Assembly: GCA_015654675.1 (NCBI GenBank)
Contig: JAATGM010000029.1
Coordinates: 1-40,254 of the forward strand
Length of the DNA stretch: 40,254 bases
Source: Planctomycetota bacterium
GTDB lineage: Bacteria > Planctomycetota > Phycisphaerae > UBA1845 > UTPLA1
Direction: 5' to 3'
Part shown: positions 14,835 to 18,264 of the stretch, in pieces
Layout of the letters: each line of letters starts with the position of its first letter
Position numbering within the stretch: position 1 is the stretch's first letter
The notes under the pieces: generated by a model
Told to the model about the DNA's origin: nothing
What the model saw: only the letters and a program-made list of their open reading frames with translations
Databases searched by the model: none
Program-made: the position numbers and the translations under genes

Positions 14835-15557
14835 TTATTTTGGGCGGGCCTTGGGTTTGCTCTTCTTGAAGTCGGCGAGGGCGTCCCGGCCGATCCAGCG
14901 GGCGGCGCGGTGCGTCGAGCCGGTTAGCTTCTCAGCGAGCGCGGTCGCGGCGGGGCGGAGGTTGGCACGGCGGCCAATGCCGCGCAGCGCCCAGTTGACG
15001 CCTTTCTTGACGAAGTTGCGGTCGTCGTCGGACGCCTTCTCGATGATCGGGAAGCACTCGGCGAAGAGGTCGTCGTCGGCCTGCTTGTCGTGGAGGGCGA
15101 CGGAGGCGAGCAGGGCGAAGGCGGCGCGCTTCTGGAACTCGCCTTTTTCCTTTGACCACTGGCGGATCTTGGCGAAGGCGAGCGGCGTGCGGTCGAAGAG
15201 GTGGAAGCAGGCCGTGTCGCAGATGGCCCAGTTATCGAAGTCGCGGCACCAGCGGTCCATCTGGGCAGGGGTGACGCTGGCGGGGTCGTCGATGAGCGTG
15301 GCGATCATGCGGGCCTCGTACCAGCCGGTTTTCCAGAGTGCGGCGGCGAGGTCGTGATCTCGGCCGATCTGTTTGGCGAGCGGTTTCATGTTGGCCATCG
15401 AAACGCCGAATGACTTCGGTGCGGAGATGGCGAAGCGCTTCAGATTGTCGCGGTCGCGCTGGGTGCTGAGTTTTTTCAAGGTGTCGAGGAGCATCGCGGC
15501 GCGCTCGGTTGGCGGAGTGGTTGCGGGTTTCGCGGCGGCTGATTTGCGCTTTGGCAT
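14835..15557 (-). CDS. AlkD-like DNA alkylation repair protein
   Basis: 240 residues with a Lys-rich, disordered start, then a HEAT-like all-helical repeat fold. Recognisable family features are the helix with SFGVSMANMKPLAKQIGRDHDLAAALW, WYEARMIATLIDDP, the DNA-facing segment MDRWCRDFDNWAICDTAC, and RNFVKKGVNWALRGIG. AlkD enzymes excise cationic 3- and 7-alkylpurines in the cytoplasm. The DNWAICDT segment holds the conserved Trp and Asp of the catalytic cleft. Its ATG overlaps the TGA of the GNAT gene by one base, so it is the last gene of a coupled three-gene unit. Confidence 0.88.
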   Translation of the reverse strand: MPKRKSAAAKPATTPPTERAAMLLDTLKKLSTQRDRDNLKRFAISAPKSFGVSMANMKPLAKQIGRDHDLAAALWKTGWYEARMIATLIDDPASVTPAQMDRWCRDFDNWAICDTACFHLFDRTPLAFAKIRQWSKEKGEFQKRAAFALLASVALHDKQADDDLFAECFPIIEKASDDDRNFVKKGVNWALRGIGRRANLRPAATALAEKLTGSTHRAARWIGRDALADFKKSKPKARPK

Positions 15558-16120
15558 CAGCGGATTCCTGGGCGACGCAGTTCGTAGACGACGCTTTCGA
15601 TGAGCTTGCCTTCGACGTCGGTTTTCGTTCGAGTCCCGGTGAACACGGCGCCGATTTTTTCCATGGCGCGGCGGGATCGCTGATTGTTTGGACCGACCAG
15701 GAAGACGACTCGATCGACGAACTGGAACGCGTGATCGAGCATGAGGCGTTTCAGTTCGCCGTTAAATTTGCCGCCCCAGTAGGGACGCGTCAGGAAGGTC
15801 CAGCCGATCTCGACTTCGCTTTTGTCGGCGTCGTAACCGAAATAGCGCGACGAGCCGATGACTTCTCGCGTAGCGCGATCGATGATGACGAATGCGCCGC
15901 GCGAATCGAGGGCCTCCTGGAAGAATTGCCTGAAGACCGGCTCGGTATAGCGATCGCGGGCCGGGTGCTGCTGCCAGATGAGCGGATCCGACGCGGCCGC
16001 GAAGAGCGCGTCCCAGTCGGCTGGCTGCAAGGGGCGAAGCTCAAGCAACTCTCCGACGAGTTGAGGTTGTCGATCGAACTCGCGCACGCCAGCTGCCCAT
16101 CGGCGATCGGCCGGCCTCAT
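15557..16120 (-). CDS. GNAT-family N-acetyltransferase (RimJ/RimL-like)
   Basis: 187 residues. The GNAT fold is indicated by the opening strand [23 protein letters not shown], the central strands [54 protein letters not shown] with the acetyl-CoA-binding stretch, and [15 protein letters not shown] near the end. This last motif is typical of RimJ/RimL-type acetyltransferases that modify protein N-termini or small amines. The substrate is unknown. The gene overlaps the VOC protein gene upstream (ATGA) and the AlkD gene downstream (TGATG). Confidence 0.87.
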
Positions 16121-16569
16121 CCCTTGTAGGCGGCTTCCAATCGCGCTATGTCGATCTTATCCATCTGCAGCATGGCCTGCATGACGCGGCCGGATTTTTT
16201 CGGGTCTTTGTCACCGAGCATCGGGCCGAGCGTGCGCGGGATGATCTGCCATGAGAGCCCGTACTTGTCCTTGAGCCAGCCGCAGCGGCTTTTCTCGCCG
16301 CCGGCCGACAGTTTTTCCCAGAGTTCGTCCACCTCGGGTTGCGACTGGCAGTCGACGAAGAGCGAGATGGCCGGTGTGAATTGATAGTGCGGTCCGCCGT
16401 TGAGGGCGATGAACTCCTGACCTTCGAGCTGGAAGATCACGGTCATCACCGTGCCGTTCGGGCCGGGCGTGGTGCGATGGATGTTCGAGTTCTTGAAGAT
16501 GGAGACATAGAACTTCGCGGCTTCTTCGGCCTTGCCGTTAAACCAGAGGAATGGGGTGATCTTTTGCAT
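16117..16569 (-). CDS. PhnB-like VOC-superfamily protein
   Basis: 150 residues. It starts [28 protein letters not shown], the standard opening of PhnB/3-demethylubiquinone-methyltransferase-like VOC proteins. It continues with [34 protein letters not shown] and ends with [15 protein letters not shown] and a helical C-terminal piece. The fold forms a metal-binding or ligand pocket; many relatives are uncharacterised and some give antibiotic or stress resistance. The ATG at 16569 is preferred over the in-frame TTG at 16587 because homologues start at this motif. It leads a three-gene unit with GNAT and AlkD genes. Confidence 0.86.
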
Positions 16570-16624
16570 GGCGATAAATCGCTCCAATTAGAGAAGGCGC
16601 ATGTCGCTTCGCGCTGCGACGAAA

Positions 16625-17320
16625 TCAGTACATACCGAGATCTCGGAAACTGGACTCTGGACTAACCCGGTCCAGCGGGAGGTTGAGTTGTTCGGCGGTC
16701 AGACGGCGAACTTCGCCGAGCACCTGTTGTTCGACTGCTGCCCGGGCCGCGAAGTTGTCCTTCGGGTTCGCAATCGGGGCGAGGCAGCGGGCGAGATCGG
16801 CGATGGTCTCCAAGCCGGGCGCGAAGTGGACTGCCAGTCGGTCAGATACGACGGCGATGGAAACGGCGCCGGCGAGGAACGTGAACATGGCGAATGTCAC
16901 GCCAGCCGATCGGCCGAGCGTGATCCACATCGCGGCGGACGCGGGCATCCAGACGGTGATCGAGGCCCACGTGGCCAGTGAGATGACGCGATCCGCCTCT
17001 GGGGAAGGCACCAGGTGCGGGACCGAGCGCCGATGCCGGGTAAAGGCCTTCCAGATTTTGCGGGGAGAGGGCAGCAACTCGTCGAGACGCGCGGCAGGGC
17101 GAGTACGCGATCGCTCGATTCCGGCGTGGGTCATAAGCCAGCGACGGAGTTCGTGAAACGCAACCGCCGTCTGGCAGCGCCCGTTGTCGGCCGGAAGACT
17201 GGCCATCACGAGCGCCGCCAAGTCGGCCACAGTTCGCACGCGCGAGCACTGGTTGTCGGCCAGCGCGATGTTGAAGCGATCTTCAACATTCAAGACCAGT
17301 TCAACGGAATCAAGTCCCAT
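16625..17320 (-). CDS. Membrane protein with split (circularly permuted-looking) acyl carrier fold
   Basis: 231 residues. The N-terminus begins inside an acyl carrier motif: MGLDSVELVLNVEDRFNI, with Ser5 at the usual phosphopantetheine-attachment position, and continues with the later ACP helices (RTVADLAALVMASL, 29-42). The missing first ACP helix appears at the C-terminus: VEQQVLGEVRRLTAEQLNL (196-214), then DRVSPESSFRDLGM, ending just where the N-terminal part begins. Between them lie a basic helical segment (55-107, with a second ACP-helix-I-like stretch FHELRRWLMTHAGI) and two membrane helices (~112-134, ~138-160). The start is MGLD at 17320 with GGGAGG 11 bases upstream. I recall unnamed database proteins with this arrangement. 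Function unknown; a membrane-held acyl carrier is inferred. Confidence 0.75.
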   Translation of the reverse strand: MGLDSVELVLNVEDRFNIALADNQCSRVRTVADLAALVMASLPADNGRCQTAVAFHELRRWLMTHAGIERSRTRPAARLDELLPSPRKIWKAFTRHRRSVPHLVPSPEADRVISLATWASITVWMPASAAMWITLGRSAGVTFAMFTFLAGAVSIAVVSDRLAVHFAPGLETIADLARCLAPIANPKDNFAARAAVEQQVLGEVRRLTAEQLNLPLDRVSPESSFRDLGMY

Positions 17321-17352
17321 GATGCGAGCATCCCTCCCTGCAATGATTGGAC

Positions 17353-17856
17353 CTATTTGCCGGACCGTTCGCTGAGCATGGCTTCGAGCTGGTCGTAGCC
17401 GGCGGACATGCCTTGTTCCATTCCGGAGGCGAGGATGCCGTCGCGGGCTTCTTTGGACGGATAGACCACGGTGATGGTGACGAGCGTCTTGCCGGCCTGT
17501 TCGGTGAAGGCCATGGTGGCGACCTGCTCGCCGGCCTGCATGGGGCAGCCCATGTCGAAGGTTTCGGTGCGGACGAGGCGCTGCTGCGGGACGACTTCGC
17601 GGTAGACGCCGTGGAGGACCATGGCGGTGTTGCCGTCGGGGCCGGCCCAGGCCCACTTGTAGGCGCCGCCGACGCGGACGTCTTCCTCGCAGGCGGTCAT
17701 CGACCAGCCGGGCGGGGAGAAGAGCCAGCGGCGGATGAAGGCCGGCGTGGTCATGGCCTCATAGACGAGGCGGGTAGGGGCGTCGAACGAGCGGGTGATG
17801 ACGAGTTCGCGGTCACCCTTGGTGGTGATTTTCAACTTTCCACTGTGGGTCATCAT
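17353..17856 (-). CDS. SRPBCC (AHSA1-like) protein
   Basis: 167 residues in the START/SRPBCC fold of Hsp90-activator-1-like proteins. Diagnostic stretches are LVITRSFDAPTRLVYEAMTTPAFIRRWL near the start, VRVGGAYKWAWAGPDG, and the C-terminal helix DGILASGMEQGMSAGYDQLEAML. Such proteins bind hydrophobic small molecules; in this context (directly after an ArsR regulator) the ligand is unknown. The ATG has GGAG seven bases upstream. It lies 27 bases after the ArsR stop, the classic ArsR-SRPBCC pair, so both should be controlled by the operator at 18223-18278. Confidence 0.9.
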   Translation of the reverse strand: MMTHSGKLKITTKGDRELVITRSFDAPTRLVYEAMTTPAFIRRWLFSPPGWSMTACEEDVRVGGAYKWAWAGPDGNTAMVLHGVYREVVPQQRLVRTETFDMGCPMQAGEQVATMAFTEQAGKTLVTITVVYPSKEARDGILASGMEQGMSAGYDQLEAMLSERSGK

Positions 17857-17883
17857 TTTGTATCTCCTTTTCGAATGATCAGG

Positions 17884-18228
17884 TCATTTTGTGTCATGGG
17901 CCTTTAGCTCTTCGAGCAGGGCGTCGAGGCGCTGGAAATTGGATTCCAGGGTCTGGCAGTATCGTTCGAGCCAGAGGGTGGCGCGTTTGATGGGGCGCCC
18001 CTCGGCGCGGCAGACGTGGGTGCGGCCGACGATGCGGCGGCGGACGAGCTTGGCGCGTTCGAGCACGCGGACGTGCTTGGAGGCGGCCGGGAAGGACATT
18101 TGCAGGGGGGCGGAGAGCTCGCTGAGGTTCTGCTCGCGGTCGGAGAGGCGGCGGAGGATCTCGCGGCGAGCCGGGTGGGCGAGGGCGTGAAAGACGCGGT
18201 CGAGTTCGGGGGAGCGATCTAGAACCAT
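17884..18228 (-). CDS. ArsR-family transcriptional repressor
   Basis: 114 residues from ATG at 18228: MVLDRSPELDRVFHALAHPARREILRRLSDREQNLSELSAPLQMSFPAASKHVRVLERAKLV, a winged helix-turn-helix of the SdpR/SRPBCC-linked ArsR type without the metal-binding Cys pairs. The start is chosen because relatives begin at this MV...LDRVF motif, and because the promoter read upstream would place transcription start on this ATG. In-frame alternatives are ATG at 18255 and TTG at 18264; none has a ribosome-binding site. The start codon lies within one of two near-palindromic operator copies, which points to strong autorepression. It heads a six-gene minus-strand run. Confidence 0.88.
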   Translation of the reverse strand: MVLDRSPELDRVFHALAHPARREILRRLSDREQNLSELSAPLQMSFPAASKHVRVLERAKLVRRRIVGRTHVCRAEGRPIKRATLWLERYCQTLESNFQRLDALLEELKAHDTK

Positions 18229-18238
18229 GTGGTTTAAT
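18223..18238 (-). promoter_or_regulatory. ArsR operator copy 1, overlapping start codon and -10
   Basis: Plus-strand reading is AACCATGTGGTTTAAT. The first 12 bases are a near-perfect inverted repeat (AACCA-TG-TGGTT). It contains the ArsR start codon (18226-18228) and overlaps the predicted -10 hexamer, so a bound dimer would block both transcription and a leaderless start. Confidence 0.7.
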
Positions 18239-18264
18239 GTATCGGCGGGCATCATGAATGTCAA
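18236..18264 (-). promoter_or_regulatory. Promoter of the ArsR-SRPBCC operon
   Basis: On the minus strand a perfect TTGACA (18264-18259) and TACATT (18241-18236) are separated by 17 bases. Seven bases lie between the -10 and the A of the ATG at 18228, so transcription should begin at or next to the start codon. That agrees with the absence of any Shine-Dalgarno sequence. Confidence 0.65.

Follow-up and report, generated by a model that had tools for sequence, protein, structure and literature searches.

The window, i.e., the whole stretch of 40,254 nucleotides from a Planctomycetota bacterium that was analyzed, contains a minus-strand gene at 17320-16625 that starts with an ATG at 17320, ends with a stop codon at 16625-16627 and codes for 231 amino acids. 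The sequence-only reading had located the gene correctly (16625-17320). The protein starts with MGLDSVELV and finishes with SSFRDLGMY. An AHSA1-family gene ends approximately 32 bp upstream, and an ArsR-type regulator lies farther upstream beyond it; a PF06983 gene (TTG start as listed) begins approximately 37 bp downstream and is followed by a GNAT gene and then a DNA-alkylation-repair gene, all in the same orientation. Positions 14835-18264 (minus strand) form a series of small co-oriented genes, from ArsR to DNA alkylation repair, within which the gene described here looks like a passenger. The genome of the window also contains an ordinary acyl carrier protein (ACP) of 84 amino acids (G000:C62), which has the D-S-L motif in the stretch N-A-D-S-L-D-T-V-E-L. 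The features of the gene are as follows.

16625-17320, minus strand: whole gene for a permuted, two-unit, Ser-less ACP-like membrane protein (sequence, homologues, AF2)
17332-17338, minus strand: GGGAGGG, 11 nt upstream of the ATG and possibly a ribosome-binding site (sequence)
17177-17320, minus strand: residues 1-48, which supply ACP helices II and III as the N-terminal half of the permuted domain (HMM positions 40-79 of 83; AF2 helices 3-16, 22-25 and 31-41)
17315-17317, minus strand: Gly2 codon; Gly2 aligns with the phosphopantetheine-bearing Ser36 of E. coli ACP (alignment to ACP model)
17306-17308, minus strand: Ser5 codon, the attachment site proposed by the sequence-only reading, which aligns with Thr39 (alignment to ACP model)
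17009-17176, minus strand: residues 49-104, helices I and II of the second ACP-like domain in the middle, including the family-conserved Cys49 (AF2; model residues 51-183 on a whole ACP with Z 8.4, 72 residues, rmsd 2.5; hhalign)
16835-17002, minus strand: residues 107-162, two-helix membrane hairpin between helices II and III of the middle domain (AF2 helices 107-135 and 137-162)
16763-16834, minus strand: residues 163-186, helix III, the last of the middle ACP-like domain (AF2 helix 173-180; structure alignment)
16628-16762, minus strand: residues 187-231, C-terminal half of the permuted domain, made up of ACP helix I with its loop as far as the Asp35 position (PF00550 positions 2-29 of 67; HMM positions 4-36; AF2 helix 190-212)

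The helices follow one another along the chain in the order H2-H3 / H1-H2-(two membrane helices)-H3 / H1, and our computations showed this to be a circularly permuted pair of ACP folds, in which the outer domain consists of the two ends joined, the inner domain is contiguous and the cofactor serine is absent from both. The AF2 model of the window protein had a pLDDT of 92.9 and a pTM of 0.72 (45 alignment rows).

As evident from the alignments to PF00550, TIGR00517 and the solved ACP 8xks_R, both ends of the protein match ACP models in reversed order. In particular, the Pfam PP-binding model PF00550 scored 31.0 bits in two stretches (cut-off 20.8), the better of which, residues 203-230, corresponds to model positions 2-29; residues 3-37 match TIGR00517 positions 38-72, and 8xks_R aligns to residues 182-229 first and to residues 3-44 second. 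The N-terminal PF00550 stretch of three relatives (L140, L102 and L118) begins at residue 3 on model position 32. The two Pfam stretches leave out the Asp-Ser pair between them, which the canonical-ACP model showed directly. The NCBIfam ACP models remained below their cut-offs for the window protein, and PF14573 (PP-binding_2) matched one half only (residues 2-41 on positions 48-87, E 0.0028, 18.3 bits against a cut-off of 32).

A reference HMM of 83 positions was made from 87 canonical ACPs within the fetched loci, and 103 family rows (98 distinct sequences) were scored against it. With the C-terminal end placed in front of the N-terminal end, the median best-domain score was 72.4 bits over 76 of the 83 positions. 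As controls, the N half alone had a median of 42.9 bits and the C half one of 20.6 (102 rows); the ends in native order reached 40.2, and the N half fused to the 46 residues that precede the C-terminal end reached 41.8 (100 rows). The two rejoined pieces overlap by a few residues in the one-unit rows. Rejoining raised the score by more than 5 bits above that of the N half in all 103 rows, which rules out a chance resemblance. By the same measure the C-terminal helix, on whose conservation the earlier proposal had staked itself, is kept in the homologues. Against the canonical-ACP HMM, the rejoined window protein reached 55.1 bits versus 35.9, and the 87-amino-acid L140 reached 89.5 versus 45.7. 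The Pfam PP-binding score rose from 31.0 to 40.2 bits in the window protein, where the rejoined ends cover positions 2-67 of 67, and likewise from 36.2 to 45.7 in L140, from 35.1 to 48.8 in L102 and from 28.4 to 40.7 in L118. The joined ends thus restore one domain, the normal-order relatives of which are the 87 canonical ACPs, and the suggestion of the sequence-only reading that the swapped ends of a membrane-anchored protein make up a single ACP domain was borne out.

AF2 gave a compact model for the one-domain L140, with a pLDDT of 93.4 and a pTM of 0.83, from which two values alone the packing of the two ends was judged (20 alignment rows, three of them spanning both halves). The helix II-III half of this model superposed on the solved ACPs 2ehs, 7pdi, 7e1r and 1f80 with deviations of 0.5-0.6 Å over 36-39 columns, at E-values of 1.0-1.6. 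Foldseek returned nothing at E <= 0.001 for the window model or the 87-residue model, as expected because the fold is rotated. In the VIA comparison of the 87-residue model, the best ACP showed a Z of 6.1 versus 5.7 for unrelated rows; the separation is too small, and the comparison was left out of the proof. The compact monomer predicted for this one-unit form, together with the pLDDT of the window protein, also bears on a domain-swapped array, in which the C-terminal half of one chain would complete the N-terminal half of the next. The order of a two-unit chain would permit such swapping and G485 carries tandem gene copies, but in view of the two models we regard an array of this kind as unlikely.

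The position of the break is nearly constant. The helices of the outer domain run II-III-I in the 103 scored rows, in contrast to I-II-III in a normal ACP, and the chain stops exactly two residues past a D-L-G-type triplet, i.e., at Asp35, in 88 of the 98 distinct sequences. Such a triplet is lacking in three of the 98, and the last residue is Asp in 63. Since the Ser36 column is occupied by Gly2 and the chain ends at Asp35, the chain has been opened at the Asp35-Ser36 bond. A misread start was rejected as the general cause, as an in-frame stop lies fewer than 30 codons upstream in 60 of 80 relatives and within 10 codons in 35 of them; the window gene has no such stop, and its frame is open upstream for 377 codons. 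A frameshifted normal ACP was ruled out as well because the gene is intact across many genomes, including those of named strains.

We compared the cofactor column in 25 rows that were chosen without the N-terminal pattern and include the window protein; most of them came from searches whose queries contained the N-terminus. The Ser36 column was Gly in all 25 rows and Ser in none, although the Gly2 is here partly by construction because every row was cut at a start of the type [MVL]-G-[LMFI]-[DEG]. The stricter set, obtained with a profile from which the N-terminus is absent, comprises 11 relatives, and in these position 2 was Gly in 11 of 11 and position 5 was Ser in one. Among all 103 rows, the column was Gly in 102, Thr in one (L097) and Ser in none. 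The C-terminus of L097 is one residue longer than the others, and its start is also MGLD. In the set of 122 relatives and 80 kept loci, the pattern used for the search itself biases positions 1-9. The MG-x-D start was absent from three of 28 proteins inspected (L018, L042 and the first tandem copy of L035), and L007 has a Leu codon instead of Met at the start. In a pattern search with the second codon left free, matches occurred in none of 296 genomes of the G568 phylum, three of 179 of the G574 phylum and one of 199 of the window phylum; the three matches that are family members (two already known) all had Gly, and the fourth, from the G574 phylum, was an unrelated helix-turn-helix gene.

Position 5, which falls in the Thr39 column, was variable in the 25 rows (G 7, T 6, A 3, S 2, Y 2, L 2, I 1, M 1, H 1), and the window protein was one of the two with Ser5. 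The sequence-only reading had taken Ser5 for the pantetheine site of a working acyl carrier. By eye, G-L-D-S does resemble the D-S-L motif, and the predicted ACP fold would suit a membrane-held carrier that is phosphopantetheinylated at Ser5 or at another serine. Ser5, however, aligns three residues into helix II, the attachment column itself is Gly in all 25 rows, and the inner domain contains no D-S-L when aligned. Ser5 was accordingly discarded as the attachment site, and a working carrier appears very improbable.

The constant glycine raised a second possibility, namely that the alpha-amine of Gly2, exposed after removal of Met at the former place of the serine hydroxyl, is acylated or otherwise loaded, which would make the protein a cofactor-free carrier or give it an N-acylated membrane anchor. 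Met-Gly starts are good substrates of methionine aminopeptidase, Gly2 is constant in both the cut rows and the stricter set while positions 3 and 5 vary, the free-codon matches point the same way, and the chain is broken exactly at the bond of the cofactor serine. On the other hand, Gly is a fair helix N-cap and a frequent second residue, and we know of no bacterial N-terminal glycine acyltransferase. No acyltransferase was found in the best 25 of 93 neighbor families, although in the window the second gene downstream belongs to the GNAT family. We therefore consider loading of Gly2 quite unlikely. The more specific form, in which the N-terminal glycine amine itself would be the acceptor of a phosphopantetheine-free carrier, loaded by ACP-recognizing acyltransferases and displayed on the membrane beside the second ACP-like module, has in our estimation only a slim chance of being correct.

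The part of the protein between the two ends was compared with known structures. The sequence-only reading had placed two membrane helices there, and AF2 helices at residues 107-135 and 137-162 agree with this, but a second, Ser-less ACP-like domain that surrounds them had been missed. VIA-align of the window model against 168 Foldseek candidates put five ACPs at the top. These were 4dxe (Z 8.4, 72 residues, rmsd 2.5), 8xqw (7.6), 3gzm (7.5), 3gzl (7.4) and 1vku (6.7), and they were followed by unrelated helical chains at Z 6.7-6.0, where Z values below about 13 are common among helical bundles. The five ACPs align to model residues 46-187 and not to the ends, and the membrane hairpin is an insertion. 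An hhalign comparison of 33 soluble-form middle domains with canonical ACPs gave a probability of 83%, an E-value of 8.9e-6 and a score of 33.8 over 82 columns, end to end, whereas 30 column-shuffled controls scored at most 10.8. A single middle domain (that of L118) had no Pfam match at E <= 1, so the relation to ACPs is remote. Additionally, unguided MAFFT placed helix I of the 87-amino-acid forms onto helix I of the middle domain.

A crude hydropathy rule identified a single segment in the window protein, whereas 43 of the 59 distinct sequences of membrane-form length have exactly two; the short two-unit forms had none, except for the truncated frames L104 and L106. Lys and Arg were richer in the hairpin flanks than in the loop in 42 of these 43 sequences, which fits cytoplasmic domains, although the argument is weak because 30 flank residues were compared with a loop of about five residues. 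The middle domain has conserved residues of its own (Cys49, Phe55, Arg59, Trp90 and Pro101), and a Cys motif of the form C-x5/6-aromatic-x2-4-[KR] was present in 79 of 92 distinct two-unit forms.

The sequence-only reading had suggested that a family with the same opening may exist, and it does. We confirmed 122 relatives, of which 80 were kept as loci, from about ten phyla as named in database records. They belong to Planctomycetota, Acidobacteriota, Geobacteraceae and Desulfobulbus, Pseudomonadota, Verrucomicrobiota with Lentisphaerae and Kiritimatiellales, Bacteroidota, Gemmatimonadetes, Riflebacteria, Sumerlaeota and Melainabacteria/Cyanobacteria, and the named hosts include Uliginosibacterium gangwonense DSM 18521, Niastella caeni, Singulisphaera sp. 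GP187, Duganella aceris and Pseudoteredinibacter isoporae. The distribution is scattered, patchy yet wide. Members were present in 15 of 392 genomes of the phylum, in eight of 294 in an overlapping sample (one being a fragment) and in five of 194 genomes of the G575 phylum, and none of 16 genomes of the same family had a match at E <= 0.001. The prevalence counts come from manual reading of the rows, and the 392-, 294- and 199-genome samples overlap; most remaining rows of the prevalence tables match one half only and resemble ordinary ACPs. Plasmid searches matched 48 and two records, none over more than 80% of the query, and 18 of the 30 matches listed for the first query are annotated as acyl carrier protein.

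The family occurs in several lengths. The 98 distinct sequences comprise three one-unit forms (87-88 amino acids), 33 two-unit forms below 206 amino acids, 59 two-unit forms of membrane-form length and three three-unit forms (416-427 amino acids); a further one-unit form of 107 amino acids lies outside the 98. This series suggests a repeated unit whose start has been shifted, and the family may have originated from tandem ACP genes that were re-started and re-stopped at the serine. A quick tree of the rejoined sequences (88 columns, many long branches) was mostly unresolved; the three-unit forms grouped with a support of 93, and five permuted rows from Bacteroidota sat with canonical ACPs behind a branch of support 96, which argues against a simple single origin.

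Several members were set apart from the counts. L104 and L106, whose frames stop early, were left out of the 80 loci, and the starts of L119 and L120 were shifted by two residues. From the rows of the other searches we left out the repeats L038-L040, L163 and L165-L168 and the fragment L170, as well as L018 and L042, which do not begin with MG-x-D; the family rows contain neither the second copies in G360, G267, G575, G555 and G523 nor the first copy of G485, and L144 (in-frame TAG) and L224 (found later) are outside the 103 rows. In L104 and L106 the frame ends inside the membrane region, and these may be frameshifts or decayed copies. L144 (G577:C70:9308-9574), a one-unit form from the class sampled for Pseudoteredinibacter, is intact except for the one TAG at approximately locus position 1501; if this TAG is read as a stop, L144 would be a broken gene. 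L035 (G485:C16) has tandem two-unit copies at about 258-1485 and 1488-2271, and the first copy carries an N-terminal extension with A-A-S-D-S-A-E-L in place of the usual start, which breaks the MG rule.

Recurrent neighbors were lacking apart from a PhyH gene in L118-L120. Around the 80 loci (crude gene calls), the recurrent clusters were generic families only (e.g., ABC transporters and sulfatases), plus PhyH in these three related loci. Among close same-strand neighbors (83 of 91 scanned), the commonest Pfam family was again PhyH, with only three occurrences. The PhyH-family (phytanoyl-CoA dioxygenase) gene ends 2-8 bp upstream of the permuted gene in L118, L119 and L120 and is the sole recurrent close neighbor, restricted to these related loci; beyond it, no operon partner recurred. 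The single family near fatty-acid metabolism in the best 25 of 93 neighbor families was Carboxyl_trans, in one neighbor.

The outer domain was the most conserved along helix II. In the 25 rows we found G in 25 at column 36, D in 23 at 38, E in 22 at 41, L in 18 at 42, V in 21 at 43, M in 17 at 44, E in 25 at 47, D/E in 22 at 48 and D in 20 at 56. The family rule is Leu37, Asp38, Glu41, Leu42, Val43, Met44, Glu47, an acidic residue at 48 and Asp56; the window protein has Leu at 44. Of the ten columns with the strongest conservation in the outer domain, seven (36, 37, 38, 41, 43, 47 and 50) fall in the helix II stretch 36-50; most of the 25 rows came from searches whose queries include this stretch. 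According to PMC3340395, L42, V43 and M44 of helix II, amid acidic residues, contact SpoT as well as FabZ, FabA and PlsX, and the same source describes an S36T ACP that cannot be modified and is non-functional.

The architecture of a permuted ACP pair is well supported, and from it we infer the function. The protein would be a pseudo-carrier for which loading with phosphopantetheine is presumably impossible. The outer domain keeps the helix II recognition face, so it should bind enzymes that recognize ACP by that face, and this putative docking would take place where the hairpin is expected to hold the two ACP-like modules, at the inner face of the membrane. From there the modules might bring in ACP-dependent enzymes, position them or restrain them by competition. 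The function we favor, at roughly even chances, is that of a double pseudo-ACP which cannot be loaded, is held at the membrane and serves as an adaptor or a competitor for ACP-binding enzymes.

A mere pseudo-ACP does not explain the conservation of the middle domain. In a different proposal, the ACP fold would serve as a structural adaptor in some complex that has nothing to do with fatty-acid enzymes, or as a binding module for the conserved Cys49 region, and the docking face would be a relic. The Cys motif of the two-unit forms is consistent with it, no fab neighbors were present in the best 25 of 93 families, and the solved complexes that were matched (Ycf2-FtsHi, complex I and MukBEF) have ordinary ACP subunits. 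In contrast, the concentration of conserved columns in the recognition stretch, to be read with the origin of those rows in mind, speaks against a relic, and two one-unit forms do without the Cys region. We consider this proposal possible but doubtful.

The pseudo-ACP reading can be set beside known systems. With type II AcpP and PF00550 (TIGR00517), the permuted family shares fold elements and the helix II recognition residues. It differs in its H2-H3-H1 order and in the replacement of the attachment serine by an N-terminal Gly, and the window protein adds the second Ser-less ACP-like domain and the membrane hairpin. Binding through helix II would be a mode shared with ACPs that have non-carrier partners, namely SpoT, MukBEF, complex I and Ycf2-FtsHi, the last three of which are known here from PDB titles, while PMC3340395 shows this mode for SpoT. 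All of these partners, however, use ordinary ACPs, whereas the family of the window is permuted and Ser-less. A full-text search of open-licence PubMed Central turned up no description of a carrier protein that is permuted or split in nature. The family departs from carrier proteins in two tested features that define them, helix order and serine, and we place it outside them, with a variant ACP fold.

If the pseudo-ACP reading is true, bacteria of about ten phyla keep a non-carrying ACP that is cut at the cofactor bond and occurs in one-, two- and three-unit forms. Wherever such permuted genes carry the annotation "acyl carrier protein", they would then be misnamed as to function. The family would also provide a natural test that separates cofactor-dependent from docking-only functions of ACP.
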